64,000 nucleotides of DNA from Dictyobacter arantiisoli (GCF_008326305.1 NZ_BIXY01000025.1:1-64000), one strand, 5' to 3'. Counted from the stretch's first letter, positions 31,732 through 59,865 are shown. Program-made: numbers and translations. Notes: a model not told the origin generated them from the sequence alone.

Positions 31732-31860
31732 GAAGTCTATCACTCCTTGAGCAGAGCTGTGTATGCATGTGTTCCTTAAACTATGATTGCGTTTTCGAAT
31801 GCAATAGAAGCTAAAATAGATATTAATATTATAACATGATGTTACATATTTTTCAAAATA

Positions 31861-39500: not shown

Positions 39501-40586
39501 GCCACCGATCTGTTCCATGACCAGCCAGAGCACCTGATAGAGATCGGCATGGCGGGTGCCCACACGCTGCTCGGCAGAGCGACGCAGGCGGGCCGTCGAA
39601 TAATAGCGGAGATAGCGAGCCTTCGCCTGCTCATCGGCAGCGGGCGCAAACAGAACATCGCGATCCTCAGCCACAAAGAGCACGATCATACGATAGACAA
39701 AGCGCAGCACCTGCCGATAGTAATCCTGTGGCAGCAAGACGCCATCGCGCAACTTCTGCTTCAGCACGTTATTGGCGGGATGGGCCAGATAGCCTGAGCC
39801 CAGCGTATTAATCGCCGTCGTCACCCCATCGCGCAACTTATCAAGGATACGCATCCCCTGATCCTGAGCCATGCGCGACCACTTCTCCAGCCAACAATCG
39901 CCGGGACGCTCAGCCTCGATCCGCGACTGATGGCAAAGCAACCAGAGCAGCACAAAGTCAGCATAGAGTTCGCCACGCAACATCGTATCCAGATCAAATT
40001 CGACATACGATAAGCGTGTCAGGCTGATATTCTTACGCAGGAGCCGCAGTTGCAGACCATTCGAGACCATCCCCCAGAGATGGTCCGTGGAGCGATTCAA
40101 TAACTCCTGCACCAGACTAGAGGGACTGCGCTTCGCGCTCCCTGAGCCACCCGCAGCCAGCGTAGTGCCCCGACTCAACTGATCCAGATCCACCTTATAG
40201 CTCACAAGATGGATCGGCAGGTGTTGCCAGCCATGCGAGATCGGATAGCTGTTCTCGCCTACCTCCAGGGGCTTCATAGTAAATAAACGTCCATAACCCA
40301 GCTCAGAAAAAAGCGGCAACAACCAGTACTCACGCGTCTGAGTGGTCCCGCTCTGACTCTCCGACAGGTTATCAGTAGCATGCTGAAATTTCTGCCAGGA
40401 GCGCAGCACCTTCGACCACGAAGCACTGATCACTTCATTCAGCTTCTCACCCTCATGATAATAGTCCTGTGGTCGCAGCCCGCTCAGATCAGGATCAAGC
40501 TGAGCGATACGTTGCAAGACATCCATGGGCAAGAGTGCCCCTTCACTGGTCACAGTAGGAAAGGTTGACCGCTGACGATTACGCAT
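36540..40586 (-). CDS. Large adenine-specific DNA methyltransferase (DISARM DrmMI/PglX-like)
   Basis: The ATG at 40586 lies 25 bp after the preceding gene's stop, with GAGAGAGGA upstream; longer in-frame extensions are implausible Cys-rich sequence. The 1348-aa product has an N-terminal region of about 480 residues, then SAM-binding motif I DPACGSGHF near residue 505 and the catalytic motif IV NPPW near 785. GVDINPMAVELCKVNLW follows motif I as in the Eco57I/COG1002 class. A target-recognition region follows, with FRWDEERRFLLRCELDAAYF near the C-terminus, as in PglX and DrmMI proteins. It should make N6-methyladenine and mark self DNA. No nuclease motif is visible, so it is a methylase rather than a type IIG fusion. 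It is the last gene of the operon. Confidence 0.92.
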   Translation of the reverse strand: MRNRQRSTFPTVTSEGALLPMDVLQRIAQLDPDLSGLRPQDYYHEGEKLNEVISASWSKVLRSWQKFQHATDNLSESQSGTTQTREYWLLPLFSELGYGRLFTMKPLEVGENSYPISHGWQHLPIHLVSYKVDLDQLSRGTTLAAGGSGSAKRSPSSLVQELLNRSTDHLWGMVSNGLQLRLLRKNISLTRLSYVEFDLDTMLRGELYADFVLLWLLCHQSRIEAERPGDCWLEKWSRMAQDQGMRILDKLRDGVTTAINTLGSGYLAHPANNVLKQKLRDGVLLPQDYYRQVLRFVYRMIVLFVAEDRDVLFAPAADEQAKARYLRYYSTARLRRSAEQRVGTRHADLYQVLWLVMEQIGGEAGFEGCPGLGLPALNGFLFSSKSALDLVGCQLANHDLLKAVRSLSQTWDNNVPRHVDYKNLGSEELGSVYESLLELHPELDIEAGRFELTTASGNERKTTGSYYTPTSLIDCLLDSALDPVLDEACRGKSKDEAQKAILDLKVCDPACGSGHFLIAAAHRIARRLAAVLTDSEEPDAAARRAALRQVVSHCIYGVDINPMAVELCKVNLWMEAIEPGKPLSFLDAHIQCGNSLLGTTPALLRSGIPDSAFDFIEGDDKKIVSKFKKENKDFRNAGQFTLFDAAGEVPWVRQDNLAVSMLQMEEMDDTTVEAIHRKEEQYNSLLTSSNYENSKLLADAWCAAFVWKKNSEFAYPITQEIFRQLEQNPYSSVGWMKDEIKRLADQYHFFHWHLAFPKVFHLPAKDETPTNEQTGWSGGFDVVLGNPPWERIKFQEKEWFASRHRGIANAANGAQRQQLIKKLAQEDPYMYANFLDDRRKSEGEGHFLRDSDRYPLCGRGDINTYAVFSENLLGACAPKGRVGCIVPSGIATDDTTKYFFQYLIEGNHLVSLFDFENRSKIFPAVDSRVKFCLLTLTGSSQRNNPGIDFMFFAHTVEDLKDDARRFTLSADDIALLNPNTKTCPIFRSRRDAELNLSIYRNLPAFVDEVNNINNWGIYYIRLVHLGDHADQVHFKWEVGKENWLNPLYESKLVNIFDHRYCTFADVNEKDCIAGQARKLTYPEKEDPNQSIIARYYLSSNFAHELFDKYPSYTHPWLLLWRDVTNATNERTCIATIIPKTLASVTCPALGFSSIINANVLSANLNSFVFDYVARQKVGGMHMTFSILKQLPAIESEKYLLPPQWDEDISLYDWVFTRTLELIYNAWDLEAFAQDCGYDGPPFRWDEERRFLLRCELDAAYFHLYGIQRADVDYIMETFPIVKRKDEKQYIDAEGKGEYRTKRVILDIYDEMQRAIESGVPYQTRLDPPPADPAVAHPPRARIEAWPSI

Positions 40587-40611
40587 AGACTGACCGCATC
40601 CTCTCTCAAGT

Positions 40612-43521
40612 TTAGCCCTGCATTGGCAGATACACATAGACACCCAGCACATCGGGTGGCAACTGCGGCTCAACCGCGACATTCCGAATACTTAAGGATG
40701 AAGCGCGGCGCACGCGCCGATGGGCGTCCTTTAAGGCTACAGCCCGTGAACAGGCCAGTTCCTGCAAATGGGGAGACAGATGCTCATGATAGCCATTGAG
40801 CACCTGCTTCAAGAAGTGTTGAATCTGGATCGCGGGCATATTGGCCCCGGACGTGGCAGAGAGCAGCTCCTCAATCGCCTGTTCATCATCCAGCCAGCGA
40901 GCAGCGGCGGGCATGCCCTCAAAGGCAAAGATTCGACAATCCTCGGCCAGCAGCGGCTGCGCCTCACTGCCAGGACGCTGCGGAGTCGTAATATGGAAGC
41001 GCATACGCACCAGCAACAACGTCGTACGCGTCTTCACCTGACTGGTCTTAATCACCCCACAGCGGCGCGCCAGAGCAGGATTCTTCTCATCCACCACACT
41101 ATCCAGCGAGGTATCCATCACATATCCCGCCAGCCCCTCAACCAGAGGATGCGTTCGATTGATATACAGCGTTTCAGGCAGTCCAGGGCGACTAAAACTC
41201 AGCAGCAGATGCTTATCTTCACCCTTGAGCGCATAGTGTTGCGCCCCAATCGCATCCATCACCGGCAACGGCACATCCTTCAGACGATAATTCACAATCT
41301 CGCCACTGGCCGAGGTACTGACAAAGGCACGATACGCCTGCAACACCTCGCTGGTAAACTGCGAGACATCGGTTGCGATACCAATCGCCGAGCGCACCGC
41401 CTCCAATTCCCGCCGCACCTCATCTATCTTCAGACTATGGTGGGCAAAGAGCGAGCGCGACACCTGCTCACGCTCCGCCTCTACATCCCAACGCTTAAAC
41501 AGCTCCTCGCGCTGCGTATGGATCGGATTAGCAAAGCCCGGCAACTGCTGCTGCTCCGACAGATCCTCGTCATGGGTCAACACGCTCTCAAAGAGCGCCT
41601 CTACCACCTGCTCAGTATTCAGCGGCACCGGCACCGAGATACCCAGCGTACTACGGATCTTACGATGCTTATTGATCAACACATCGAGCACGATACTATC
41701 CACAATATTATTCTTGCCATAGTAGGTCAGCACGCGCACCTGTGGATGCGCCTGCCCAAAGCGATCCACGCGCCCCTCACGCTGCTCATGACGCGTCGGA
41801 TTCCAGGACAGATCATAGTGAAAGACAGCATTGAAAGATTCCTGGAGATTGATCCCTTCACTCAGGCAGTCAGTACACACCAGGACACGCTGGGGAGATT
41901 GCGCTAACTGCTCGACGCGCTGCTCTCGCTCGGTTGGAGGCAGAACACCAGTCACCGCCGCAATCTCCACCGTTTTCGGCAGATATTTGCGTAGTTCCTG
42001 CGCCACATACTCAGCCGTCGGAATAAAGCGGCAGAAGACAATCGGCTGATAACCATCCCTGACCATCTGCCCGATCAGCGCTATCGCCTGCTGCAACTTG
42101 GCATCCTTCGCGCCATGGAGCGACTCAGCCTCACGGGCCATCGCCAGCAAGCGCTGACGCGTCTTCATCTTCTTCTCACCCCCGGCAGTAGCATCATCAT
42201 CATCAAAATCACTACCCGGCGTAATATCAATGCCCTCCGTCGTATCGCTATCCGTCAGATCCAGCACGGTACGCTGACCGATGGCATCGGCCTCCGACTC
42301 GCTCTCAGCCCCCGCAACCTGAGCACGATTGCGCAGAGTCGTAGCCGCCGCAGCCGGACTTGAAGCCATCGAGCGCAAGAGCGCAAGCACTGACCACCAG
42401 CGCACCCGCTGATGCCTACGCCCTCCACTGGTATCCCGCACCGTCTCACGCGCATAGCTCATAATCTTATCAACCAGGCGGCGATATTCCGGCGTCAAAA
42501 TATAATGCTGCTCCTGATCATCCCGGCCAGGAAACGGCGTCTCTAGCTGCGTCTCCTGCTTCAGAAAGGCCTGGATATCCGCCCGACGGCGCTGCACAAA
42601 ATGTTCAGCCAGTTGCTGGCGATACCGCTCATTCTGCCGCCCGCTCAGGTCGTCCGGCAACGCCTTAAAATCCTCAGCCAACAAGGTCAATAAAGAACGA
42701 AAGGCCTGCTCATCGCCACTATGCGGGGTCGCCGTCACCAGGATTATATGGCGCTCCTGACGCGCAGCCAGGCTGGTCAGCAGTTGATAGCGCTGGTGAC
42801 GCCCGCCACGAGCCTCATTGGAAAAGGCGCAGGTATGGGCCTCATCCACAATCACCAGATCGGGACAGGCATCCACAAACTCAGTGCGCCGCTTATCAGC
42901 CTTAATAAAATCAATCGAAATAATCACAAAAGGATAATGCTGGAACAGCGATTCATCCCGACGGCAGTGGCGTTCCAACTGAGCCGCCGTACTGGACAAC
43001 ACCAGGACCGCATCGATATGAAATTTCTCCTGTAACTCTGCCTGCCACTGCTCCGCCAGATGTGGTGGACACAAGACCGCCAGGCGATCCACCTCACGCC
43101 GATCCAGCAATTCGCGCGCAATCAGGCCAGCCTCAACCGTCTTGCCGATCCCAACATCATCGGCGATCAACAGGCGCACCGGGTCCAGGCGCAACGCCAT
43201 CAGCAACGGGACCAACTGATAGGGACGTGGCTCCACAGCGATATGCGCGAACGAGCGAAAAGGTCCGGCGCTTGAGCGAAAGCCCAGACGCACCGCATCG
43301 CGTAGCAAGCGGCAGGAACGATAATCCCCCCACTGCGTCGGATCGGGCAACTCAAACTGAGCAGACGTCACAGACTGCCCCTCCAGCGGCAAAAAGATCC
43401 CGGAAACCTCCTCATCCGTCCCACCCAGAGGCCGCACAATCAACATCTCCTCATCCGACTCTGGCAAGACCACCCACTCACGTCCCCGTGCCCTGACCAG
43501 CGAACCAACCGCGTATATCAT
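40612..43521 (-). CDS. SNF2/RapA-type helicase (DISARM DrmD-like)
   Basis: ATG 43521 overlaps the upstream stop as ATGA and has AGGAGG 5 nt before it. The 969-aa product has a small N-terminal beta domain, then Walker A DDVGIGKT near residue 124, DEAH near 225 and TATPHSG. The second RecA lobe contains VLVCTDCLSEGINLQ and the arginine-finger motif HEQREGRVDRFGQ. The C-terminal 300 residues are helical. It is a double-stranded DNA translocase, and its pairing with a downstream Eco57I-like adenine methylase is the signature of class 1 DISARM (drmD-drmMI). The 4-bp overlap shows translational coupling with the large helicase gene. Confidence 0.92.
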   Translation of the reverse strand: MIYAVGSLVRARGREWVVLPESDEEMLIVRPLGGTDEEVSGIFLPLEGQSVTSAQFELPDPTQWGDYRSCRLLRDAVRLGFRSSAGPFRSFAHIAVEPRPYQLVPLLMALRLDPVRLLIADDVGIGKTVEAGLIARELLDRREVDRLAVLCPPHLAEQWQAELQEKFHIDAVLVLSSTAAQLERHCRRDESLFQHYPFVIISIDFIKADKRRTEFVDACPDLVIVDEAHTCAFSNEARGGRHQRYQLLTSLAARQERHIILVTATPHSGDEQAFRSLLTLLAEDFKALPDDLSGRQNERYRQQLAEHFVQRRRADIQAFLKQETQLETPFPGRDDQEQHYILTPEYRRLVDKIMSYARETVRDTSGGRRHQRVRWWSVLALLRSMASSPAAAATTLRNRAQVAGAESESEADAIGQRTVLDLTDSDTTEGIDITPGSDFDDDDATAGGEKKMKTRQRLLAMAREAESLHGAKDAKLQQAIALIGQMVRDGYQPIVFCRFIPTAEYVAQELRKYLPKTVEIAAVTGVLPPTEREQRVEQLAQSPQRVLVCTDCLSEGINLQESFNAVFHYDLSWNPTRHEQREGRVDRFGQAHPQVRVLTYYGKNNIVDSIVLDVLINKHRKIRSTLGISVPVPLNTEQVVEALFESVLTHDEDLSEQQQLPGFANPIHTQREELFKRWDVEAEREQVSRSLFAHHSLKIDEVRRELEAVRSAIGIATDVSQFTSEVLQAYRAFVSTSASGEIVNYRLKDVPLPVMDAIGAQHYALKGEDKHLLLSFSRPGLPETLYINRTHPLVEGLAGYVMDTSLDSVVDEKNPALARRCGVIKTSQVKTRTTLLLVRMRFHITTPQRPGSEAQPLLAEDCRIFAFEGMPAAARWLDDEQAIEELLSATSGANMPAIQIQHFLKQVLNGYHEHLSPHLQELACSRAVALKDAHRRVRRASSLSIRNVAVEPQLPPDVLGVYVYLPMQG

Positions 43522-46500
43522 GCATCCCTCCTGAATAGCTCCGCGTACTCCGCGAACACAGCATCCCATTGCTCACGCGCGCCAAAGCGCACCACCATAT
43601 AACCGGCGTTCTCCAGTTCTTCAATCAGAGCGCCATCGCGCTCCCCACGCTGCGGCTCATCCCCATCCACATAGACCGCCAGGGCACGACCATCCTGCGT
43701 ATACAGAAAATCGGGGCACGTCGATGTAGTGGGAACAACGCCATGATGCTGATCAGGCGAGACAAACTGACGAGCATGCGCCTGTGTCAGCCACTCCTGC
43801 TCAAGCGCAGAAAGCCCGGAATCAACCGTTATCAGCTCAGTCGCATCAATCACAGGCGTGCTGCCGATCAGGCGTTGCAGATACGGCTTGATGGATTGGC
43901 GATCCAGGAAACGATGATCCTTCTGGTTAGCATAGGTCATCAGGCAGTGGTAGCAGGCAGCGACACACTCTTCCAGCGCCCGCTCAGCCTTCCCGAAGTC
44001 CTCACCCGTCTGAGGATCAAAATGACACAGTTCCAGCGCCACCGCAGCCACCTCGGCGACAGCTAACGGAGCATCGATCAACTGGCGCAAGACGCCCGCG
44101 CCACCCTCCGAAGCCTCATACAGCAAAATCATGCTCCGCTTTCGCGCATCCGGCATTGGCTCGGCAGCCAGCTCATTATCTTCAAGCTGAAAGCGCACCT
44201 GAATAGCATTCTTCAAGGCAGCCTGCAACGAGATCATGCGGGTAGCATCCAGCGAGACCAGCGGCTCAAACAACAGACAATTACGGGTATCTTCGACATA
44301 AGGGATCACGCGCAGCCGACTGCCCGACATCGCATCGCCAGGATCATCCGCCGACTCATCCTCCTTGCCCCAATAACCGCGCTCCGTATCCAATACAAAG
44401 CCATGAACATCTTTATCTTTGCGACGCACCGGACCAAGGTTGATGCGCCACAGAGAGGCAGCCTGTCCATAGGTTAATCTGGCGATGCGCTCGCCATGTG
44501 CATCCTCGACATAGGCCACAAAAAACGAAGGCTTGCCATCACGGCGATTAGGGAAACGCACGCCTGTCCGAATATCATAACCCTGCCGCTGACGCTCCTC
44601 TTCATCCGAATTAATCTTGTCCCGCCGCCGGGTCGAAACATTCTGCAAGCGATAGAGGGTCGTCAATGTTGAAAGCTTGTCATGTTTACAGCGCACACAG
44701 ACATCCACCGAGTGGGTCATATCCAGTGGATGCAGATAGCCACAACGATCACACTGCTTGATCGAGCTGGTCAGCACCCCCGAACGATCCTCACGCACCG
44801 AGAGGATAGAACGATTGATAATGTAGCGAGACCCTTCGTGGTAGACAATCGCACGGGGTGCAAACTCCGAGATCGCCAGAAAGCGGGGGCGGGAAAGATA
44901 CTCATCCCGTTGTCTGGCGCGCCGCGCCGGAATATAAGCCGAGAGAGGCAAGCGAGGGAAATTATAACCGGGCAAAAAGCCCTCGCTGGCAAAGTAGCGA
45001 TAGCTATAGAATTCCGAGAACTCGATACGCTCGGAAGAACTACTGGCCGTCAGGAGCTCCAACTGAGCCTCAGCCTCTGAGCGGAGGCGCCTGGCTTTTT
45101 GCTTATCCTCCTCGCTACGTGAAGCATCGCGGATAATACTATTTTGCGTATCGCGTTGCGCCTGGGCCGCTCGATACAGCCCGCGCCAACGGTCGGCGGC
45201 AGCATCAAAACTCTGCTCAATCGTATCCAGTTGCACCCGCACCCAATCAGAGGTAAACCAGGGAGCAGTATCTTCAGTCAAATCGTTCTCCAGGGTTTGC
45301 AGTACCCGGCGCGCATGCAAATTAGCCCGCTGGCGGGCCGAAGGATCACGCAGGGCATGCAGAATGGGTGGCTGCAACTGCAAACCTGGCTCATCCCCCT
45401 CTACATCCAGCAAATCCTTCAGCGACTCACCCAGCGAAAGATGCGTTTCCGCCAGCCAGATTGCATACACATGGGCACGCAACAGATCCTCATTCGTTAA
45501 ATCCAGTCGTGGCGGACTGACCGCGCCACTGACCATAGTGCCGGGATGTTGGAAGAAATATTGGTCATGGGAACTGCCGGTAGAACAATAGGAGAAGACC
45601 AGCGCGGGCTGTCCACTGCGTCCGGCGCGCCCACTGCGTTGCGCGTAATTGGCTGGTGTTGGCGGCACATTACGCATATTCACCACATTTAGCTCGGCGA
45701 TATCCACGCCCAGTTCCATAGTTGGTGAACAATAAAGGATCGGCAGCTCATTGGCGCGGAACGCATTCTCGCGCTCCTCACGCCTCTGCGCCGGAACCTG
45801 CGCCGTATGCTCGGCCGCATGCAAGTCTTCCATATGCTGGAGATCAGCCGCATTATCCTGATAAAATTGCAAGAAAAATTGATTGACACGTTTCTCCGGC
45901 ACATCTGGGAGATTGGGTGTACGCAAAGGATCATGATACGGCTCAGTCCCATCACCGGCATACCAGATAATCGAGGACGCCGCGAGCTGATACCCACCAA
46001 CCGGAATCTCGTCTGTCGCGGACTCCCCATTTTTGCCCTTCCTTTTTGGACGGGGAGGTCGCACCTCTTCAACCAGATCTGCCGTCGACAAGGCTGCGAG
46101 CAGATCTCTGATCACATTCTGCGTCTCATCCGCCTTGAGGGAAAAACCAAAGCCACGCAGAATAGCGCGTACATAGCGACCATAGCTACTCAAGCCAGAC
46201 AGATAACGCTCGCTGCGATCATCCTCTTTGCCACGTGAGCGGGGATACAAACGGGTCGCATAGAGCAACTCCTCATTCTCATCCAGCCCCCACGGAGCAA
46301 TCAGGTGCTGGCTACTCTGCTGCTTAAACTCGGACTGCCTGGTATCGTCCAGATAATCCACCCGAATCGCCAGTTCGCGCCGCATATGATCCAGCAATGT
46401 ACGACAAAGCTTATAACGTGCGTCCGCAGGAATGGAGCGTAGTGCCTCATGATACAGCACTTTCACTTTCTGATCCCCTACTTGATGAGGCTCCCGCCAG

Positions 46501-48833
46501 AATTCCTGATCCGCGCAGATCTCATGCAGATCCTGATATTCAATGCGCAGCAAGCCACATTGTTCCAGGTTAGGAGAAGTAATACGCCAGCCGCGCCGCA
46601 AATCCAGATAGAGCCGATAGCCCAGGATATTGCGCAACGCCTGCTCGGTCTTGATCTTCGCGCTATATTTAGCCTCAGGACTGGCGGCATATTTATCAGG
46701 GCGCAACTGCAACACATCAAAGACCTGCTGCGTCAGAGTATCATGCTGGATACCAGCGTCTCCGGCCTTTTTCACGGCACAATAGAGTGCTGAACGCAAC
46801 TGACCAATCTCGACAAAATCATTGAAGTGACCGGCCTGTAAAGAGGCATCCTGGCGATTATCGGTAAAGCTCAACATCTTGGCGGCCATCTGTAAAGCAT
46901 CGCCGTGCTCCTGCGCCTCACGCAAATGCCGAATCGCCGACAAACTCAGAATCGTGGTGGCAGTACTGCGCCCCTCCGAGCTCAACTCAGTCAGCTTCTC
47001 AAAGTCATTATCGACATAAGAGTTATAGGAAACACCACAATGTAGACAGAAACGGAACGGAGCTGGCACAAAATGGCAGAGCATGCCCTCATCAGCATCC
47101 ATTTCCAGCACCTGCCCCGCAGGACTGACATAATAGGGCTGTGGCACATTCTTGCGCATTGAAGAAGAGATCAAACGCTCTTTGTTATTGTGGACCTCTT
47201 TCCATTCGCCAGGCACACGGGCCAGAATACCATCCGGATCAGCAGGCCATTGCTCCTGATCATTCTGCGAAAAATACAGGAAACCAGGAACGCCAACCAG
47301 CGATCTTTTATCAGTGACGATCCCCTCGCCGGTATAGCGCAACTGATCCTGCACATCGCGCTCCACAAACGAATGCTCATCCTGCCAGCGCACCGAGTAA
47401 TATTCCTGACCACAGGCGCGGCAGAACACCAACGGGAAAAGGACCCGCTCACGTCCACCGGGCGCGAACTGTTGCCGCTGCAACGTAATATGGCGCTCAG
47501 GATCAAGCTCCAGCGTGCTATAGACCGTATCCCCTTTACTGATAAACTGATGCAGGCGAAAAGCGAAGGGGGCTCGACCGGTCAAAGGACTGCTGATCCT
47601 CTCATTGCCGGACAACAATCCCTGGGTGATGGCAGCGATACATTGCTGCTCAGACGCGCCCGTGGCCCGTTGCAGCAGGGCAGCCGCACACTCAGACTCG
47701 CCGGTTCCAGTAATACGCAGCGGCTTTTTGCGACCCAGGCGGCCATCCGCTTGCCGCTGCACTCCAAAGGTGCTCTCAATCCAGATCGAGAGCGGATCAT
47801 GCTGGAACTCGCTATAGTGCTGCGGCTGCGATTGTTGATAGTGCGCCACCCGTTGCGTGAGCACGCCGCGGAATTCGGGAGAAGCCTCATCGACCTCATC
47901 GGTAACGCGCACCAGGGTCTCCCCAATCACATGCGCGGGCTGAACCTCACACCCAAAGATACGCGAAGCCATCACCGAAACGTCCTGCCGCTGCTGCGCA
48001 TAAGTGCCTGCGCTCGCCAGAGTAGCCGAAGTACCGATACACTGCAACGCAGCCCCCTTCGCAGTCAGCCGCTCCCGTACCCGGCGCACCAACAGTGCCA
48101 CATCGGCCCCCTGACGACCACGATACGTATGGAGTTCATCCAGCACCAGGAAGCGCAACTGTGCATTCTGCATCAAGCGCCGCTCGCGTAAACGCGTCAA
48201 CACCAGTTCCAGCATCACATAATTCGTCAACAAAATATCAGGGGGATGAGCAATAATCTCCTCGCGCTCGCTCTGTCGCTCCTGACCCGTATAGCGACGG
48301 AACGTCACCTCGCGGGCAGAAGCAGGGAAATTGAATTGGATATACTTATTGAGCTCACCAAGCTGACTATTCGCCAGCGCATTCATCGGATAGACCACAA
48401 TGGCCTTAATGCCTGGCTGCTCAGGATGACGCAGCACATAATCCACAATCGGAATAATATAAGAAAGGCTTTTCCCCGAACCTGTGCCGGTCGTCAACAC
48501 ATAACTCTGCCCCTCGCGGGCCACCCGAATCGCCTCATCCTGATGCGTATGCAAGCGCAAAGGCTCACCCAGAGGATGCTCCTCATCCTTGCCGCGACGA
48601 AAGATACGAGCACAGGCCGGATGCAAAATCCCTTCCGTCACCAGTTCATCAATGGTATGGCCTGGTTCAAAGACAGGATTCAACTGAATCAATGGATCAG
48701 GCCAGAGCATACTTTTATGAAACAATTCATTTTGTACATATTCACGAATGCGAGGAGTTCTAATCTGAATAAAGCTTTTAATATAGGAAGAGTAATCATC
48801 AATCAACTGACGACGTAGATCAAAAATATTCAT
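43518..48833 (-). CDS. Giant helicase-DUF1998-Vsr-like nuclease fusion (DrmA-DrmB/DruE-like)
   Basis: The ATG at 48833 (MNIFDLRRQL, with GAGGG upstream) gives 1771 aa. A DEAD/DEAH helicase occupies the first part: TTGTGSGKS near residue 120, LDELHTYRG near 235, IGTSATLAS, then YCSPTMELGVDIAELNVVNM and AQRSGRAGRSG. Cys pairs FCRACG and FCLHCG lie inside, and a zinc ribbon CDRC...CVRC lies near 1370-1400. The DUF1998/MrfA-like domain (about 1560-1650) ends with clustered cysteines ECVAACYHC. The last 80-90 residues (CPDFLYTQDGRALAVYVDGD, RDGALIEELENAGYMVVRF) have the Vsr/DUF559 PD-(D/E)XK pattern. Known DISARM uses separate DrmA and DrmB; Druantia has a DruE of similar size. The fused nuclease could replace DrmC or another effector. 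First gene of the operon. Confidence 0.9.
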   Translation of the reverse strand: MNIFDLRRQLIDDYSSYIKSFIQIRTPRIREYVQNELFHKSMLWPDPLIQLNPVFEPGHTIDELVTEGILHPACARIFRRGKDEEHPLGEPLRLHTHQDEAIRVAREGQSYVLTTGTGSGKSLSYIIPIVDYVLRHPEQPGIKAIVVYPMNALANSQLGELNKYIQFNFPASAREVTFRRYTGQERQSEREEIIAHPPDILLTNYVMLELVLTRLRERRLMQNAQLRFLVLDELHTYRGRQGADVALLVRRVRERLTAKGAALQCIGTSATLASAGTYAQQRQDVSVMASRIFGCEVQPAHVIGETLVRVTDEVDEASPEFRGVLTQRVAHYQQSQPQHYSEFQHDPLSIWIESTFGVQRQADGRLGRKKPLRITGTGESECAAALLQRATGASEQQCIAAITQGLLSGNERISSPLTGRAPFAFRLHQFISKGDTVYSTLELDPERHITLQRQQFAPGGRERVLFPLVFCRACGQEYYSVRWQDEHSFVERDVQDQLRYTGEGIVTDKRSLVGVPGFLYFSQNDQEQWPADPDGILARVPGEWKEVHNNKERLISSSMRKNVPQPYYVSPAGQVLEMDADEGMLCHFVPAPFRFCLHCGVSYNSYVDNDFEKLTELSSEGRSTATTILSLSAIRHLREAQEHGDALQMAAKMLSFTDNRQDASLQAGHFNDFVEIGQLRSALYCAVKKAGDAGIQHDTLTQQVFDVLQLRPDKYAASPEAKYSAKIKTEQALRNILGYRLYLDLRRGWRITSPNLEQCGLLRIEYQDLHEICADQEFWREPHQVGDQKVKVLYHEALRSIPADARYKLCRTLLDHMRRELAIRVDYLDDTRQSEFKQQSSQHLIAPWGLDENEELLYATRLYPRSRGKEDDRSERYLSGLSSYGRYVRAILRGFGFSLKADETQNVIRDLLAALSTADLVEEVRPPRPKRKGKNGESATDEIPVGGYQLAASSIIWYAGDGTEPYHDPLRTPNLPDVPEKRVNQFFLQFYQDNAADLQHMEDLHAAEHTAQVPAQRREERENAFRANELPILYCSPTMELGVDIAELNVVNMRNVPPTPANYAQRSGRAGRSGQPALVFSYCSTGSSHDQYFFQHPGTMVSGAVSPPRLDLTNEDLLRAHVYAIWLAETHLSLGESLKDLLDVEGDEPGLQLQPPILHALRDPSARQRANLHARRVLQTLENDLTEDTAPWFTSDWVRVQLDTIEQSFDAAADRWRGLYRAAQAQRDTQNSIIRDASRSEEDKQKARRLRSEAEAQLELLTASSSSERIEFSEFYSYRYFASEGFLPGYNFPRLPLSAYIPARRARQRDEYLSRPRFLAISEFAPRAIVYHEGSRYIINRSILSVREDRSGVLTSSIKQCDRCGYLHPLDMTHSVDVCVRCKHDKLSTLTTLYRLQNVSTRRRDKINSDEEERQRQGYDIRTGVRFPNRRDGKPSFFVAYVEDAHGERIARLTYGQAASLWRINLGPVRRKDKDVHGFVLDTERGYWGKEDESADDPGDAMSGSRLRVIPYVEDTRNCLLFEPLVSLDATRMISLQAALKNAIQVRFQLEDNELAAEPMPDARKRSMILLYEASEGGAGVLRQLIDAPLAVAEVAAVALELCHFDPQTGEDFGKAERALEECVAACYHCLMTYANQKDHRFLDRQSIKPYLQRLIGSTPVIDATELITVDSGLSALEQEWLTQAHARQFVSPDQHHGVVPTTSTCPDFLYTQDGRALAVYVDGDEPQRGERDGALIEELENAGYMVVRFGAREQWDAVFAEYAELFRRDA

Positions 48834-48933
48834 CGCAAACCCTCGTTGAGGAAACACAACTCTGCTTGTGCATTATAGCCAGCACATTCCTTATTGTCAA
48901 TAAATACCAAATGAATCAGAAGACACTTTTTAC

Positions 48934-48962
48934 TTGACTTTTCCCTGTAATTACAGTAAAGT
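48934..48962 (+). promoter_or_regulatory. Promoter with palindromic operator before the McrB-like gene
   Basis: TTGACT (48934-48939) and TAAAGT (48957-48962) are 17 bp apart. The spacer contains the perfect 12-bp palindrome ctgtaattacag (48945-48956), ending exactly at the -10 box. It lies in the 208-bp divergent region between the two defence operons and about 80 bp upstream of the McrB-like start, so a repressor here could control one or both. Confidence 0.6.
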
Positions 48963-49041
48963 GAGAAAACCATAGTGAAACCTATCGCGGCGCTCATTTT
49001 GCTTATACTTCCATATATTCAAATTTACAGAAAGCTGAGAT

Positions 49042-50421
49042 ATGAGTAAATCCTACCTCCTGTATCTCTCTTCATCCTCCAGCTCCAGGCCCATCTCGGC
49101 ACAGCAGTCACGCCTGCTGCTGAATCAGCATGCCACGCACATGCAGGTTGGAGATCGTATCCTACTGGTTCAAGATCAGAAAGAAAAAAACATATTGCCG
49201 GTCGTTTATATTGTTGAAGCGCTCAACCGTGGTACAGGTGCGCTCACACTGAAGCGGGACAAGATTTACAATCAAACGGTAAAGCTAGCAGATATCGCGA
49301 CAATCCCTTCGCTTCAACGCAATAGCATCCAGAACAGCACACAGCAATTAAGCGACAACGACCTCACGTTTGTGATAGAGACAATGATGGGTGGAAGCAG
49401 GATGGAAGAAAGATCACTCCTCGATACAATTGCAGCGTATATTACAGATCGAGGCTACTATTTTGAACGGGAAACGCTCGACAATTATCATATCTGCCTG
49501 AAAACCAGGCCCTTTGCCATTCTAGCGGGACTCTCAGGCACCGGGAAATCCAAGCTCTCGCAGCTCTACGCCGAGGCGCTAGGCCATAAAAAACACTATC
49601 TCCGCCTGCCCGTCAGTCCCAACTGGTATAGCGACCAGGCCCTGCTCGGCTATTTTGATACGATCAGCGGCCAATATATCACCGAGCAGGCTGCGGACTT
49701 TATTCTCAAAGCCAACCAGGACACAGACAACCTGTATTTCATCTGCCTGGACGAAATGAACCTGGCCCACGTCGAACACTACTTCGCGCAATTCTTGAGC
49801 GCCATGGAAGAAGAAGATCCTGAAGAGCGTACCGTACGCCTGATGGCAGACAACGTATACCAGCGGCTGGAAGAAAAGGCAAGCTTGCAACCGAAGCTCC
49901 AACTGCCTACCAACCTCTTTTTTACCGGCACCATCAATGTCGACGAAACCACAAAGTCTATCAGCGACAAAGTCATCGACCGAGCCAACACCCTGGAGTT
50001 CTTCAGTGTTGACCTGGAAAAAGCGCCATTGCCAGCGGAGATTCCGCCCTCACCACTCAACATCTCAGCCTATACCTGGCAAAGCTATGTCAGCACCAGG
50101 AGAGATACCACCTTTCGGCCACAGCTCAGCGAGATCAGTAAAATCCTCAACCGCGCTGACATGGGCCTGGGCTTCCGTATCCTCCACGACATCGAACGCT
50201 ACCTGGCAAATAGTCAAGAACTCCTGGAACCAGGCGTCGCCTTTGATCTCCAGGTCAAGCAGCGCATCCTTCCCCGTGTCCGGGGCACCGAAACCATCAA
50301 AAAAAACATCGACGAACTGCACGCCTTTGCCCGCAACAACGGCCTGAGCCGTACCGAAAACCGTCTAGATGCAATGAAATACAGGTTACAACGCGATGGC
50401 TACACCAGTTTCTGGCGCTAA
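49042..50421 (+). CDS. McrB-like AAA+ GTPase
   Basis: The 459-aa product has an N-terminal domain of about 110 residues with a GDRILLVQ strand pattern, possibly an EVE/PUA-like modified-base reader. The AAA+ core follows: Walker A GLSGTGKS (163-170), Walker B YFICLDEMNLAHVEHYF, and GTINVDETTKSISDKVIDR as sensor segment. These are the features of McrB-type proteins that form GTP-driven rings on DNA containing modified bases. Its stop overlaps the next gene's start by 26 bp, so the two are translated together. It is divergent from the helicase-methylase operon. Confidence 0.9.
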   Translation: MSKSYLLYLSSSSSSRPISAQQSRLLLNQHATHMQVGDRILLVQDQKEKNILPVVYIVEALNRGTGALTLKRDKIYNQTVKLADIATIPSLQRNSIQNSTQQLSDNDLTFVIETMMGGSRMEERSLLDTIAAYITDRGYYFERETLDNYHICLKTRPFAILAGLSGTGKSKLSQLYAEALGHKKHYLRLPVSPNWYSDQALLGYFDTISGQYITEQAADFILKANQDTDNLYFICLDEMNLAHVEHYFAQFLSAMEEEDPEERTVRLMADNVYQRLEEKASLQPKLQLPTNLFFTGTINVDETTKSISDKVIDRANTLEFFSVDLEKAPLPAEIPPSPLNISAYTWQSYVSTRRDTTFRPQLSEISKILNRADMGLGFRILHDIERYLANSQELLEPGVAFDLQVKQRILPRVRGTETIKKNIDELHAFARNNGLSRTENRLDAMKYRLQRDGYTSFWR

Positions 50422-52123
50422 CAGCTGGCTCTCAATCCAGGGACGTTTACTATTTTTCCGTCCCGAAGAAGAAAATCAGCAGCTCGAACTTCAAGAATAC
50501 GGCGACTACACCATCAAGGTCACTCCGTATGCTCCTGAGGATGTATCACTCTACCTGGATGATGAAAAAGTGGAGAGTGAACATTATGGTCTGTGGAAAT
50601 TTCATCCCTCTCATTATGCAGGACTCTATAAAGTGATCGCCAGGGCCCCTGGTCAGCCAGATCAAGCAACCTGGCTACGAGTTTTTCCCCACAAATTCAC
50701 TCAAAGGGCCTACGAACATATGAAGGATGAGCTCAGTAGGACCGCCATCGACCTGCTCTTTCATCTCAATTCGCCGGCCCTGGAACGCGCCAGCTATACA
50801 TCCCATAGCAGGGAAACCTCAGCCCTGCATGACTATCAGCAGATACGTAGAATTATCGGAGAGATGCGCGATATCATATTGCGCATACGCCTGGCACCAC
50901 AGACCATCCTGCATACCGAACTCGTCCAGCAAAAGCTGCAGCAAATCAGGCACTTCTCACCGGACATGCAACCTGTACCAGGAGCAAGGATAGCTGTACC
51001 CGCACGAAACGGTCAGGCAGTGCAGCGGGAGCGAGTCATTCCCCAGGAGTGGATGACGCGGCGCACCATCCTGAGCTACGATAGCTACGAGAACCGGTTG
51101 CTCAAACACTTTATCAAACAACAACTGCTTCCCAGGCTGGGAAGCATACAAGAGCGAGCAGAGCAAGAGAAGATAAAAGTAAACGACAACTATCACCGTT
51201 ACCATAATAAGGAAGATTTGCAACTTGTGGGCAAGCTCGAACAGGCGATCAAGCAATGCGAAGAGATGAAGCAGCGTTGCCTGTATTGGACCAATGAGCC
51301 CTTTTTGCAAGCAGCCCAACCGCTCGGTATACCCGGACATGTCACCCAGATCCTACAAAAAGATCCCACCTACAGCCGCTTTTATCGCCTCTATTTACAA
51401 TTTCAGCAACGTCTCCAGACCACCATTGAGACTGACAAATATATTACCGCCATCTCCCTCAGAAGGGTGAGCGCCCTCTATGAAATGTGGAGCATATTTG
51501 GTGTCACGCGTCTGATCACCGACATCCTGGAAAAAGAAGGCTACCAGATGACCGCTAATAACACATTTGAAATCGCCGAAAACCTCTTCCACTTCAGCGT
51601 CAAAACCAACACCGCCAGTATCATCCTGAAGAAAGGCGACACCCGCGTCGTAATCAAATATGAACCCTATTATCACAATATAAACGAGCGTGGACTCGCG
51701 TTCCCAGCCATCGTCTCCACGACTATCAAGGGAGGTCAACTCACACCCGACATGGCGGTCGAAGTATATAGAGGAGCAGAAGCACAAACCGCCTTAATCT
51801 TCGACGCCAAATATCGCTGGAAACGCCATGGCACGAACACCTTCGTCCCCAATCCAGATGACATGGATACGATGCATAATTACTTCAATAGCATCCGGTA
51901 TCAACGATCCGCGCCCACACCCACCACTCACCGATCAAGAGGAGCCTTACCACCATCGTTTGTCAGTAGCGCCTACAGCATCTATCCAGGCAGCAAGATA
52001 CACATCCAGGACAATGATCGCATCGGGGCGCTCCCATTTTTTCCCAACATCTCAGAAGGCAAGCTCCACGACATCCAGGAAAAGCTCAAAGACCTTCTCT
52101 ACTACGCCTACGTGATCGACTAG
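50396..52123 (+). CDS. DUF2357/DUF524 PD-(D/E)XK nuclease, McrC-like partner
   Basis: The 575-aa product has an N-terminal beta-rich DUF2357 region (about 1-110), a long helical middle containing YDSYENRLLKHFIKQQLLP, and a C-terminal nuclease. In the nuclease part, TPDMAVEVY (Asp) and LIFDAKYRWK (Asp-x-Lys near residue 469) form the PD-(D/E)XK active site, followed by DDMDTMHNYFNSIRY. This architecture is the known replacement of McrC beside McrB-like GTPases in type IV restriction systems, which cleave modified DNA. The 26-bp overlap with the GTPase gene supports complex formation. It ends the plus-strand defence operon. Confidence 0.9.
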   Translation: MATPVSGANSWLSIQGRLLFFRPEEENQQLELQEYGDYTIKVTPYAPEDVSLYLDDEKVESEHYGLWKFHPSHYAGLYKVIARAPGQPDQATWLRVFPHKFTQRAYEHMKDELSRTAIDLLFHLNSPALERASYTSHSRETSALHDYQQIRRIIGEMRDIILRIRLAPQTILHTELVQQKLQQIRHFSPDMQPVPGARIAVPARNGQAVQRERVIPQEWMTRRTILSYDSYENRLLKHFIKQQLLPRLGSIQERAEQEKIKVNDNYHRYHNKEDLQLVGKLEQAIKQCEEMKQRCLYWTNEPFLQAAQPLGIPGHVTQILQKDPTYSRFYRLYLQFQQRLQTTIETDKYITAISLRRVSALYEMWSIFGVTRLITDILEKEGYQMTANNTFEIAENLFHFSVKTNTASIILKKGDTRVVIKYEPYYHNINERGLAFPAIVSTTIKGGQLTPDMAVEVYRGAEAQTALIFDAKYRWKRHGTNTFVPNPDDMDTMHNYFNSIRYQRSAPTPTTHRSRGALPPSFVSSAYSIYPGSKIHIQDNDRIGALPFFPNISEGKLHDIQEKLKDLLYYAYVID

Positions 52124-52310
52124 CTTGCCTGGTTATATCGCTGCACTAGCGCGAAAGCCGGGCAATGGTCTGCTGGAGCACACGCAGGCCAAAACCAACT
52201 TTCTGTGTGTCTCATTTCAACGCACCTGTTATGGTTTTTATAAATGTTATATAATCCAAACAAGTAAATATTCATATATAACGATACTAAATATTTGCAG
52301 GAGAACAGGA

Positions 52311-52634
52311 ATGAAGCATCTGGTAGAATTTCCGCTAGATACAGGCGAACATATTGTCATCGAGGTAAACGAGCCTGACACAGGTGGGACTGTGCGTGCT
52401 GGTAGAGGAGAGAGAATAGAGAAGGCAAAAGAAACATTTGAGGCAGCTCTTGATCGTGTATTGCCGGCCACCCGTCGCATTGTCGAGAAGTTACGTTCCA
52501 CAACAGACAAACCTGATGAAATTGAAATCTCTTTTGGCGTCAATCTCGGCTCTGAGGCTGGCGCATTTATCGCCTCTGCCAGCGTCGAAGCAAACTTTTC
52601 CGTTACTGTGCGCTGGCAGAAAAGCGATAAATAA
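52311..52634 (+). CDS. Trypsin-co-occurring domain 1 (Trypco1, CU044_2847 family) protein
   Basis: ATG 52311 follows AGGAG at 7 nt and gives 107 aa. The product begins LVEFPLDTGEHIVIEV and ends EIEISFGVNLGSEAGAFIAS then EANFSVTVRWQK, which is the Trypco1 signature. A -10-like tataat lies about 65 bp upstream. Trypco1 proteins occur with trypsin-like proteases in predicted conflict or signalling systems; the convergent gene pair just downstream encodes such a protease, so a functional link is likely. Molecular role not established. Confidence 0.85.
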   Translation: MKHLVEFPLDTGEHIVIEVNEPDTGGTVRAGRGERIEKAKETFEAALDRVLPATRRIVEKLRSTTDKPDEIEISFGVNLGSEAGAFIASASVEANFSVTVRWQKSDK

Positions 52635-52666
52635 GAGCAACTGTGTCTGGTGTTAAGGTTATGCAA

Positions 52667-53611
52667 CTAGAGACACCAGCTATTCGGTGCATTAAGGGGG
52701 ATCAGATAAAAGAGATTGTTGCGGAGCTGGTAACAACTCATTTGCTCTGGTTTGGCAAAGGCTATTGCGGTCTTTTGTAAGATCGGATAGTCTTTGTTTC
52801 CATCAGGCAACTGAATAGATGCAGTGGCGGTTATATTATAGATGAAGTTTTGTTGTGAACTTATATGAATGGTGGCAACAAGCGTATCTTGAGGATTAAG
52901 ATAGGTATCAGTACATAGTGGCTGATTATCGGTATTCATTGTGGTACCAACAAAGGTTGTCGCAGTATTCTTCAAGAGAATAGTATCTTCACATGTATAT
53001 ATTCTCGATGGCGTATCTCCCCCTCCAGCGCCACATTGTGTACAGGTCGGTGGTGTACAGGTCGTCGGATTTAAGGCTCCCAGCGAGCAATAATCCAGCA
53101 GGTGATACACAGCATCGTTTTTCACGGGCGTTTGTATTTCCCTGACAGTAATATTATGGAACAAAAAGGGCTGATTGCTACTATTTACTAATGTTAACGT
53201 CATCGAACAACCATTTTGTGCAGTTCCCCCCGTTGTGGTGCCATACATCCACTCCAGTGCCGCAGGCATTGTTTCGGGATGCGCGATGCCATTCTGGCTG
53301 ATATTCCCTACAGCGGCTTTCTGAACATAGGCTTTGATTTGTTGTATTTCACCGCTATCATATTGTGTCTGATCCGTCTTTAACACCAGATTATTCGATG
53401 GTTGCTTGATAGCGGTTCTATCCGGGCAGTAGATACTTTGTGCGTTCACGGTAATAGTAGATGCAGTATTCTTCATGGGTGTCGCTGTATTTGGTCCGTT
53501 CGAGCCACAGCCTGTAAGAAGGAATAAGATAGAACAACAGAAAAGAAAAAAGATATTGTGCTTACCGTATCTATATGATGCCGTCATGAGTAACTCCTTC
53601 ATACTTCTCAT
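52667..53611 (-). CDS. Secreted lipoprotein coupled to the trypsin-like protease
   Basis: The 314-aa product has a lipobox signal (FLFCCSILFLLTGC) with the lipidated Cys at about residue 35, so it is membrane-anchored outside the cell. The mature part is Thr/Asn-rich and probably beta-sandwich, with a Cys-rich loop (about 185-215, CSLGALNPTTCTPPTC) that may form disulphides. Its ATG overlaps the protease stop as ATGA, which shows translational coupling. Function unknown; a partner or substrate-recruiting subunit of the protease is plausible. Confidence 0.8.
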   Translation of the reverse strand: MRSMKELLMTASYRYGKHNIFFLFCCSILFLLTGCGSNGPNTATPMKNTASTITVNAQSIYCPDRTAIKQPSNNLVLKTDQTQYDSGEIQQIKAYVQKAAVGNISQNGIAHPETMPAALEWMYGTTTGGTAQNGCSMTLTLVNSSNQPFLFHNITVREIQTPVKNDAVYHLLDYCSLGALNPTTCTPPTCTQCGAGGGDTPSRIYTCEDTILLKNTATTFVGTTMNTDNQPLCTDTYLNPQDTLVATIHISSQQNFIYNITATASIQLPDGNKDYPILQKTAIAFAKPEQMSCYQLRNNLFYLIPLNAPNSWCL

Positions 53612-55113
53612 GATTTGTTAGCTACAAATTTTCCACCTGCCCCTATGGGCTGATAGAAATGCCAATTGTGTTCATCGCTAACGAAGAACACATGGAATAT
53701 CTGTGAGGATGATGCCGTATATGTGTGATTGAGTGTCTGGTACGTAATCGTTATTGAGAAATCCAATGCGGCAGGCCATGTGGAACTGAGACCAATATCC
53801 AACGATTGATGTTGACCAGGATAGATGATCGGTTGCTGATTGCTGTTTGCCGGATAAGCTTCTATAAGTAGCCCTGCGGTATCAGAACTATGATACTCCG
53901 CCGTATAAAGGTCGGAAGAATATGGCTGTGGTGCTGGTTGATGCCAGACGTTGAGGCGTGCAGGGAGAGTAGATACAGTAACAATATGGCATGAGACAGC
54001 GTTGATGGTCAAAATATCATGATTCTGGCTCTGGTTACTTGCATCCACAATAACGTGGTACATAGGAATAGTTGAGGGTGGATTGTGGGCATTAAAAATA
54101 TGCACAATGCCAATTTGTGACGCTGTCTGCAAATTCTGTGTTGTTGCATTTTCGGGAACTTTCGCTGGTATTTGTATATCTGGACTGATCGTATCGCGCC
54201 AGGAGATTGCGAGTGCCGGTGTGGGGCTCGTTGCTCCGGTTGTTGTTTTCGTGAAGAATAATGTACTGTAGTTGAGCATAAAAAAGAGCAGCATACAGAG
54301 CAGCAGGAGACTAAGTCCATATATGGTAATATGTTTGGCGGTGAAGTATTTTTTTTCGATACGCAGTTGAAAAATGGTACTGGGAACTATTTTTTTGTGC
54401 CTTACTGGCTGCTCAATGCTCAGAAATTTTCGACCGAGTCGTGCGCTAATATCTTGTATCAGTAGAGTAGGGAGCATAAAAGCAGTTTTTGTCGCACTTT
54501 GTCTATCGGCCTCAACAATCACACCCACCACGGCATTTGCCTGTTCGTCCCATACCGGAGTGCCGCTGAAGCCTTGCTCGATGCGATGTCCCGTGACATG
54601 TGTGCTTTCTAGTTGCACAAAGCCCCTATTATCGCGTCCTAGGATTCTCCCACTGGTCCAGACCCCATTATCGTAACGATCAGGAAAACCAAAAGCGCGA
54701 AACGTATGGTTCCACATATCCTCATAGGGAACTACGACCATACAGGTTGCATTGGCGACGTCCGGGTACGCTTTCTCTAAACGCAACACAGCAAGATCTT
54801 TATCTCCCTGTGGATACCATTCTCTTACCGTGGCGTAGCGTTGCTCTAGCGGAGCGGATTTGAAGCCAACAATCAACGTGTGTTGTGGAAGAGCCTGTCT
54901 ATGATCGTTATCCTCATGCAGCTCAAGTGCTTGTGCTATGACATGCGCACAGGTGAGAATCTCCATGTTTGAAATGAGAAAGCCTGCACCAATCACATAC
55001 TTTCCGGTTGCGTCCATAATATAGACAATTGAAGTATCAAAGGAAGATGGCATGATTCGCAAATTCACCTGCACCATTTTACTACTAGCACGTCCTATAC
55101 AAAACAATACCAT
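53608..55113 (-). CDS. Membrane-anchored trypsin-like serine protease
   Basis: The 501-aa product begins with the protease domain (about 25-220): His in LTCAHVIAQ, Asp in GDKDLAVLRL, Ser in GFSGTPVWD, all in trypsin order. No signal peptide precedes it. A membrane segment (ITIYGLSLLLLCMLLFFML, about 265-285) follows, then an extracellular beta-rich domain of about 200 residues. The protease domain is therefore predicted to be cytoplasmic, which fits intracellular trypsin-like proteases of signalling systems. It is translationally coupled to the lipoprotein and convergent with the Trypco1 gene. Confidence 0.87.
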   Translation of the reverse strand: MVLFCIGRASSKMVQVNLRIMPSSFDTSIVYIMDATGKYVIGAGFLISNMEILTCAHVIAQALELHEDNDHRQALPQHTLIVGFKSAPLEQRYATVREWYPQGDKDLAVLRLEKAYPDVANATCMVVVPYEDMWNHTFRAFGFPDRYDNGVWTSGRILGRDNRGFVQLESTHVTGHRIEQGFSGTPVWDEQANAVVGVIVEADRQSATKTAFMLPTLLIQDISARLGRKFLSIEQPVRHKKIVPSTIFQLRIEKKYFTAKHITIYGLSLLLLCMLLFFMLNYSTLFFTKTTTGATSPTPALAISWRDTISPDIQIPAKVPENATTQNLQTASQIGIVHIFNAHNPPSTIPMYHVIVDASNQSQNHDILTINAVSCHIVTVSTLPARLNVWHQPAPQPYSSDLYTAEYHSSDTAGLLIEAYPANSNQQPIIYPGQHQSLDIGLSSTWPAALDFSITITYQTLNHTYTASSSQIFHVFFVSDEHNWHFYQPIGAGGKFVANKS

Positions 55114-59283: not shown

Positions 59284-59865
59284 ATGCATATTTCGATCCA
59301 TACCCCACCTTTAGCAACTGCGCCCGTAATCGTTGGGCTTCTCGTCCTTATACTCGCCATTATTTATCTTAGAACGCGCCCTCGACGTAGACGAGGACAT
59401 AGCTCAACCAGGGGTCAAGCTCCCGCTCGGAAACGTACTTCGATCAATGAGAAAGGCATTCCGAAGGTAAATGGACGCATTCCATCCTGGCAAAAAGATC
59501 CTGGTGCCAGAATTGCTAATCAATATGGCAGAGCTCGCAGTCCGGAGTGGCCGAGAGTAGCTCATGAGCATCTCAGCCATCAGCCAGCTTGTGTGGTCTG
59601 TGGTCACCGAGGAAAAGGATTACAGGTTCATCATATCAAACCATTCCATCTCTACCCGGAACTCGAACTTGACCCAAATAACTTAATCACTCTCTGCGAA
59701 ATCAGGGGCCGCACGCATCACCTACTGATTGGTCACCTTGATAATTGGGAATCGTACAACAAACGTGTACGAGAAGACACAAAGCGTTACTCCCATCAAA
59801 GTGCTGCCGCGATCAAGGCCAATGTGACCTGGCAGAAAGAGGTAGCTCAACGCCCGATGCCTTAA
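59284..59865 (+). CDS. Membrane-anchored HNH endonuclease
   Basis: The 193-aa product has an N-terminal membrane segment (VIVGLLVLILAIIYL, about 16-31) followed by an Arg-rich stop-transfer run, a basic linker and an HNH domain (about 95-165). The HNH motif is complete: CVVCG zinc knuckle, LQVHHIKPFHLYPEL (catalytic HH), DPNNLITLCE (Asn) and a final HHLLIGH. HNH nucleases anchored by a helix are unusual; with N-terminus out the domain would be cytoplasmic, with the reverse it would be extracellular, and the positive-inside rule favours the nuclease inside. A role in degrading incoming DNA is possible. Confidence 0.88.
   Translation: MHISIHTPPLATAPVIVGLLVLILAIIYLRTRPRRRRGHSSTRGQAPARKRTSINEKGIPKVNGRIPSWQKDPGARIANQYGRARSPEWPRVAHEHLSHQPACVVCGHRGKGLQVHHIKPFHLYPELELDPNNLITLCEIRGRTHHLLIGHLDNWESYNKRVREDTKRYSHQSAAAIKANVTWQKEVAQRPMP

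Follow-up and report, generated by a model that had tools for sequence, protein, structure and literature searches.

A Divergent NxD McrBC Pair and ARMADA Type I Cassette Form a Candidate Inherited Anti-Phage Unit in Dictyobacter arantiisoli

Results

The Divergent Operons

The window, a stretch of 64,000 nucleotides from Dictyobacter arantiisoli, a soil-type bacterium, contains two operons that point away from each other (Table 1). Genes for an McrB-like GTPase and an McrC-like partner (49042–52123, plus strand) lie opposite a three-gene operon (36540–48833, minus strand). Gene calls, Pfam, and PADLOC confirm the initial annotation of an McrB/DUF2357 pair beside a "methylase operon," with the qualification that the methylase is the third gene, behind two large helicases. 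The reported gap of 208 bp between the operons is also borne out if YprA starts at the ATG at 48833; the feature as first delimited began at 48834, the first base of this gap. What the earlier reading overlooked was the ARMADA identity of the minus-strand operon and the NxD motif of McrB.

Table 1. Genes and promoter elements of the divergent locus (window coordinates)
Feature	Position	Strand	Basis
McrB-like AAA GTPase, 459 aa	49042..50421	+	Pfam AAA_5 2e-5; PADLOC PDC-M26A 7e-49
McrC-like protein, 575 aa	50396..52123	+	Pfam DUF2357 5e-18, PDDEXK_7 2e-13
Divergent promoter region, 208 bp, with two back-to-back promoters	48834..49041	.	Promoter motif scan
Predicted promoter towards YprA	48900-48872	-	TTGACA-17-TATAAT, sigma-70-like, 12/12
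Predicted promoter towards McrB	48934-48962	+	TTGACT-17-TAAAGT, sigma-70-like, 9/12
YprA-family DEAD helicase with MZB/DUF1998, 1779 aa, likely ATG at 48833	43518..48857	-	Pfam DEAD, Helicase_C, MZB; PADLOC DruE1/2/3
BrxHII/RapA (SNF2)-like helicase, 985 aa	40612..43569	-	Pfam SNF2-rel_dom, Helicase_C
PglX-like N6-adenine methylase (ARMADA MTase), 1380 aa	36540..40682	-	Pfam Eco57I 5e-23; PADLOC DrmMI 204 bits

The −35 boxes of the two predicted promoters are 33 bp apart. A site that is directed towards McrB and scores at least 9/12 occurs in all eight loci compared, and one directed towards YprA in five of the eight. Directly after McrC stands a gene for a trypsin-co-occurring (Trypco1) protein, with a trypsin-like protease gene further on, on the opposite strand (52125–55113), and an HNH endonuclease-like gene follows at 59284–59865. 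To the left of the minus-strand operon are genes for a CHAT-domain TPR protein (28222–31743) and a sigma-70 family factor (26038–26913).

An McrBC Pair of the NxD Form

McrB displays Walker A (GLSGTGKS) and Walker B (CLDEMN) motifs and an NxD motif in the sequence GTINVDE, and its gene overlaps that of McrC by 26 bp. The PD-(D/E)xK catalytic pattern of McrC, TPDMAVEVYRGAEAQTALIFDAKY, is intact, and PD...D-x-K is retained in the homologues that were aligned. A GTPase with Walker A/B and Nx(x)D motifs, partnered by a DUF2357–PD-(D/E)xK protein, places the pair in the McrBC family. Assignment to canonical (NxxD) McrBC is ruled out by GTINVDE in the window protein; the NVDE form recurs in McrB of all 15 pairs from Ktedonobacteria and in that of Chlorohelix.

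According to Bell et al. 2024 (PMC11090510), NxD McrB proteins are uncharacterised, many of them are associated with methylases, and the linkage to ARMADA described there concerns canonical non-CoCoNuT McrBC. Since the McrB found here is of the NxD form, the present family is the NxD counterpart of that reported linkage. The published DISARM-like cassette (PMC11090510, Figure 2 green) resembles the window in setting an McrB GTPase and McrC beside YprA, DUF1998, SWI2/SNF2, and PglX. It differs in its NxxD motif, whereas the window has NVDE and a divergent orientation, and a DUF2357–PDDEXK_7 type McrC takes the place of PF10117. CoCoNuT systems share the NxD GTPase motif and the DUF2357 partner, but the window McrB is short, with no large insertion, and the McrC nuclease motif is intact. 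CoCoNuTs are further marked by a coiled-coil fused to the NxD GTPase and by an RNase/HEPN partner, and no match to such a partner was found in the neighbouring genes scanned.

Searches of PDB sequences gave marginal McrB matches for the McrB profile and nothing useful for the McrC profile, and the viral contigs searched yielded three distant relatives of McrB. A structure prediction for full-length McrB was set aside (mean pLDDT 42.6).

A Putative Base Reader in McrB

About 90 N-terminal residues of the ARMADA-linked Ktedonobacterial McrB proteins belong to a single family (hhalign 97%, E 1.6e-11), which has no Pfam match. An AlphaFold2 model of residues 1–121, built from two closely similar sequences and to be taken as a hint (mean pLDDT 66.7), has as its top Foldseek matches 2ar1, 1zce, and 2g2x, which we take to be EVE proteins; YTH domains and VcaM4I, an EVE-HNH enzyme, come next. 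VcaM4I reads 5mC/5hmC through its EVE domain (PMC7897488), and T. gammatolerans McrB reads 6mA through a YTH domain (cited in PMC7897488). A profile comparison of the McrB N-terminus with EVE-containing relatives gave no match (hhalign probability 0.7%). The fold model thus weakly suggests an EVE/YTH-like base reader. The proposal that this domain be examined for binding of 5mC/5hmC rather than m6A has accordingly been narrowed, in that the model points to the PUA superfamily, while the m6A motif of the neighbouring methylase is disfavoured as a target (see below). Two orphan McrB proteins have a different N-terminus, one of which faintly matches VcaM4I by sequence.

The ARMADA Cassette

As judged from gene content and order, the minus-strand operon belongs to ARMADA Type I, a class described in 2025 by Bell et al. 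(PMC12458937). YprA and DUF1998/MZB are joined in a single polypeptide, and the genes follow in the order YprA, BrxHII-like, PglX-like. In a tree of YprA sequences, the window protein is placed among YprA–BrxHII–PglX cassettes, and the best plasmid matches, in Deinococcota and Actinomycetota, have the gene order of the window. The likeness to Type I includes fusion of YprA to a Vsr-like C-terminus; the differences are that the Vsr active-site histidine is lost here and that a head-to-head NxD McrBC is attached. In the methylase, the SAM motif DPACGSGHF occurs at residue 540 and NPPW at 818, with the putative target-recognition region within about residues 850–1256.

Taken singly, PADLOC matches would place the operon in DISARM, Druantia, or Dpd; these labels were rejected because the genes match three different systems and their order fits ARMADA. 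The BrxHII-like helicase, for example, has DpdE PDLC02853 as its best profile (872 bits) and also matches DrmD and BrxHI/II. A single fused YprA, with no PLD gene (DrmC) among the five genes, sets the operon apart from DISARM class 1, where the helicase DrmA and the DUF1998 protein DrmB are encoded separately.

Recurrence and Limits of the Five-Gene Unit

The initial annotation had suggested a search for the arrangement in related genomes, reasoning that operons never found together elsewhere would count against any connection. They are found together in Ktedonobacteria, on a Chlorohelix plasmid, and in Nocardioides. Among 47 Ktedonobacteria genomes, with Dictyobacter kobayashii as the nearest named relative, 11 contain a total of 15 McrBC pairs of the window kind. 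Nine of these, from eight genomes, stand head to head with YprA–BrxHII–PglX, two of them in the D. arantiisoli genome itself with different methylases; the other six have no ARMADA beside them. The head-to-head copies have diverged to as little as 50–55% identity in McrB, 41–46% in McrC, and 59–61% in YprA. The McrBC-linked cassettes of Ktedonobacteria form one clade of the YprA tree (support 100), so most of the recurrences share a single origin.

A second gain of NxD McrBC is indicated by the Chlorohelix plasmid, where an EVE-fused McrB of the same subfamily (54% identity) follows the ARMADA methylase on the same strand. The YprA there, at about 40–43% identity, lies far off on the tree, and by this placement the plasmid represents an independent joining of this McrBC subfamily with a distant ARMADA. 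In Nocardioides pNOCA01, ARMADA is followed by a canonical-type McrBC. McrBC of the window kind was not found at most other Chloroflexota ARMADA loci examined, within surroundings of at most 20 kb each, some of them limited by contig ends. Because six of the 15 pairs are free of ARMADA and most other Chloroflexota ARMADA loci are free of McrBC, neither system needs the other.

The limits of the unit are seen most clearly in comparison with D. kobayashii. DNA homology of 83–88% spans 36559–52122, its outer limits lying at the stops of the methylase and of McrC; a single internal gap falls in the methylase. No other DNA homology to D. kobayashii was found in the rest of the window from 20001 to 64000. 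The left flank has its best match, at 67% identity, about 1.2 Mb away in the D. kobayashii genome, which has no counterpart of the right flank. The McrC stop also marks the end of homology in the G038–G040 and G000:C93–G025 pairs of loci. Such gene-exact boundaries suggest that the five genes were transferred or retained jointly in differing chromosomal contexts. Three of the D. kobayashii genes, those for McrC, BrxHII, and the methylase, are each broken into two frames, through either decay or sequencing error.

These data bear on whether the two operons are chance neighbours, captured independently in a defence island. In favour of such a view, Ktedonobacterial ARMADA loci also adjoin further defence genes, among them CBASS, GmrSD, and a second YprA-like helicase. 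It must, however, contend with a head-to-head layout kept over roughly 40–50% protein divergence, with homology that stops exactly at the outer genes, and with a second independent joining, as well as with canonical-type McrBC accompanying ARMADA elsewhere. Recurrence has already largely refuted the idea of chance neighbours, which we regard as improbable. Taken together, recurrence, the homology limits, and the Chlorohelix joining argue for one inherited unit and against two chance captures. Of the two readings first offered, coordination or independent capture, the former has thus gained, in that the operons belong together, and gene-exact homology limits disfavour the latter.

The surroundings of related cassettes vary. 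G025 has a second YprA cassette, with CBASS genes and a fragment of an integrase nearby, and in G007 and G032 the YprA cassette is either cut or truncated. Genes for a NERD/UvrD-like helicase and for GmrSD and DUF5655 (type IV-like) adjoin the second McrBC–ARMADA unit of the D. arantiisoli genome (L018:5125-9871). Immediately behind the ARMADA methylase of D. kobayashii lies a second McrBC (AAA_5 and PF10117 McrC; L040:8808-12559). For two orphan McrBC pairs, a short divergent gap separates the genes from one for a GIY-YIG domain protein (L020:5312-7117, L021:13299-15185), and in G179 a gene for a Cas10/Cmr2-like protein is closely upstream of an ARMADA cassette (L099:1552-3612).

Exchange of a Methylase Segment beside a Constant McrB

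Two closely related loci, G037 and G039, provide an informative comparison. They are identical in McrB and McrC (100%) and nearly so in YprA (99.7%) and BrxHII (99.8%), yet their methylases share 21–58% identity over about residues 1021–1200, against 95–100% over most of the remainder. The exchanged DNA amounts to about 530 bp and is cleanly delimited (L045:8507-9039 versus L046). A similar pattern separates the window from D. kobayashii (G024): identity is about 93% for YprA, about 94% for BrxHII, and 90% for McrB (82–87% over the first 80 residues, in the N-terminal domain), but falls to 20–51% over methylase residues of about 930–1230, with better-conserved flanks. The variable segment follows the catalytic domain and is hypervariable in the pairs compared, which suggests that it is the target-recognition domain. 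If so, the host would have changed its m6A motif with McrB unaltered, and McrB is probably not tuned to the neighbouring methylase.

The initial annotation had paired a system that modifies DNA with m6A and one that should cut modified DNA. The pairing of the operons stands, but replacement of the segment beside a 100% identical McrB argues against McrB reading the methylated motif of its neighbour; it leaves room for the reading of another base or for a role independent of sequence. The same replacement argues against cognate restriction–modification, in which an McrBC-like enzyme would cut unmethylated sites that the neighbouring methylase protects. Such McrBC-like enzymes do exist beside methylases in PcaI (PMC8989522) and LlaJI, and the methylase association of many NxD McrB proteins is in keeping with a similar arrangement. 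In those systems, however, the methylase is cognate, whereas here McrB and the variable methylase segment change independently, and in G037 and G039 the swap should have exposed host sites to cutting. The methylase of PcaI is, moreover, a Dcm-like cytosine enzyme (PMC8989522), and that of the window is of the adenine/PglX type. Cognate cutting is therefore considered quite improbable.

Still harder to credit is epigenetic exclusion, in which McrBC would read m6A laid down by foreign relatives of the methylase and so exclude DNA from cells with a rival ARMADA. The 6mA-reading YTH domain of T. gammatolerans McrB and the YTH domains among the Foldseek matches offer a possible basis for it. Against it stand the coexistence of two units with different methylases in the D. 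arantiisoli genome and the tolerance, in G039, of a replaced methylase segment beside an unchanged McrB.

State of the YprA Nuclease

The C-terminal Vsr-like region of the window YprA retains PDF and VDG but lacks the histidine of DGxxH, which makes its activity doubtful; PDF...(V/I)DGxxH comprises what we take to be the Vsr catalytic residues. Motif states were counted by eye in the alignment, in which automatic labels were wrong for L101, L102, and L106 (marked kept) and for L107 (marked lost); L019, with DGDAAH rather than DGxxH, was counted as lost despite its label "kept." By this count the histidine is present in 0 of 10 YprA proteins linked to NxD McrBC, whereas the full motif is kept in 22 of 28 BrxHII-linked YprA proteins with no NxD McrBC, including those of the sister loci G023, G034, and G025. 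In G023 and G034, the divergent slot is occupied by a RelE-like and UvrD helicase fusion that fits the description of ArmD from ARMADA Type II. At L032:7896-9974 and L033:7866-9950, a RelE-like and UvrD/GajB-like fusion of this description lies in the divergent slot of a cassette with Type I order.

Retention of the PD-DxK motif in McrC makes a hand-over of nuclease function from YprA to McrBC possible. McrBC might then be the nuclease arm of ARMADA itself, replacing the degraded Vsr of YprA and occupying the place of ArmD, so that five proteins would serve one pathway. Besides the 0-of-10 count and the sister clade, this proposal draws on the gene-exact boundaries of the unit and on the finding that ArmD is essential in ARMADA Type II (PMC12458937), a system with proven non-abortive defence (PMC12458937). 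However, the Vsr motif is also lost in six ARMADA loci with no NxD McrBC, the Chlorohelix YprA clade is generally motif-free, and orphan McrBC pairs exist. An active Vsr nuclease is predicted at the end of ARMADA YprA typically but not as a strict requirement, and YprA branches with no active nuclease have been described (Bell et al., PMC12458937). Given the motif-free Chlorohelix clade and the six McrBC-free losses, the association amounts to one clear coincidence on the tree, without statistical support; a test on independent pairs had no power. A single shared pathway is rather unlikely, though it is the strongest of the rival explanations. Similarly doubtful is the evolutionary course in which McrBC became the nuclease of ARMADA once the YprA Vsr was lost, with NxD McrBC cutting helicase-exposed or modified DNA as the type IV-like core subunit of a five-gene system.

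Discussion

The reading toward which the evidence inclines, if by no great distance, is that the five genes make up a single inherited unit directed against phage, in which an ARMADA Type I core is joined across a divergent promoter to a dedicated, complementary, modification-dependent NxD McrBC. The two helicases and the m6A methylase would tell host and incoming DNA apart and directly block the DNA of phages. The EVE/YTH-like N-terminal reader of McrB would bind a DNA modification other than the m6A of its neighbour, a 5mC/5hmC-type modification being the likelier target. The GTPase of McrB would then drive movement along DNA until the McrC nuclease cuts, and phages with modified DNA might thereby also be covered. 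The sequences themselves show the catalytic motifs, the gene content, the limits of the unit, its recurrence, and the independence of McrB from the variable methylase segment, while base specificity, cutting, and protection from phage are inferred.

Complementary layers are favoured by the independent variation of methylase and McrB, by the separate promoters, by the existence of each part alone, and by the precedent of BREX and BrxU. A PglX-type m6A system on pEFER is likewise paired with a type IV enzyme, and the two give complementary protection (Picton et al. 2021, PMC8565348). The parallel is incomplete, since BrxU is a GmrSD-type enzyme rather than McrBC and BREX has no YprA.

Coupling of McrBC to ARMADA has already been noted in the literature, with no test of the coupling in the papers found. 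The present family of loci allows a test of whether an m6A-based defence can include a modification-dependent enzyme as an integral part rather than as a neighbour. It provides natural controls, in that some cores carry McrBC, some an ArmD-like gene, and some neither of the two; methylase segment swaps beside unchanged McrBC and a degraded YprA nuclease are further ones. Methylase fragments were also observed on both sides of an McrBC–ARMADA locus and on other contigs (L028:3-2615 and G043 contigs C72 and C6), and these are possibly tandem cassettes or recombining recognition segments.
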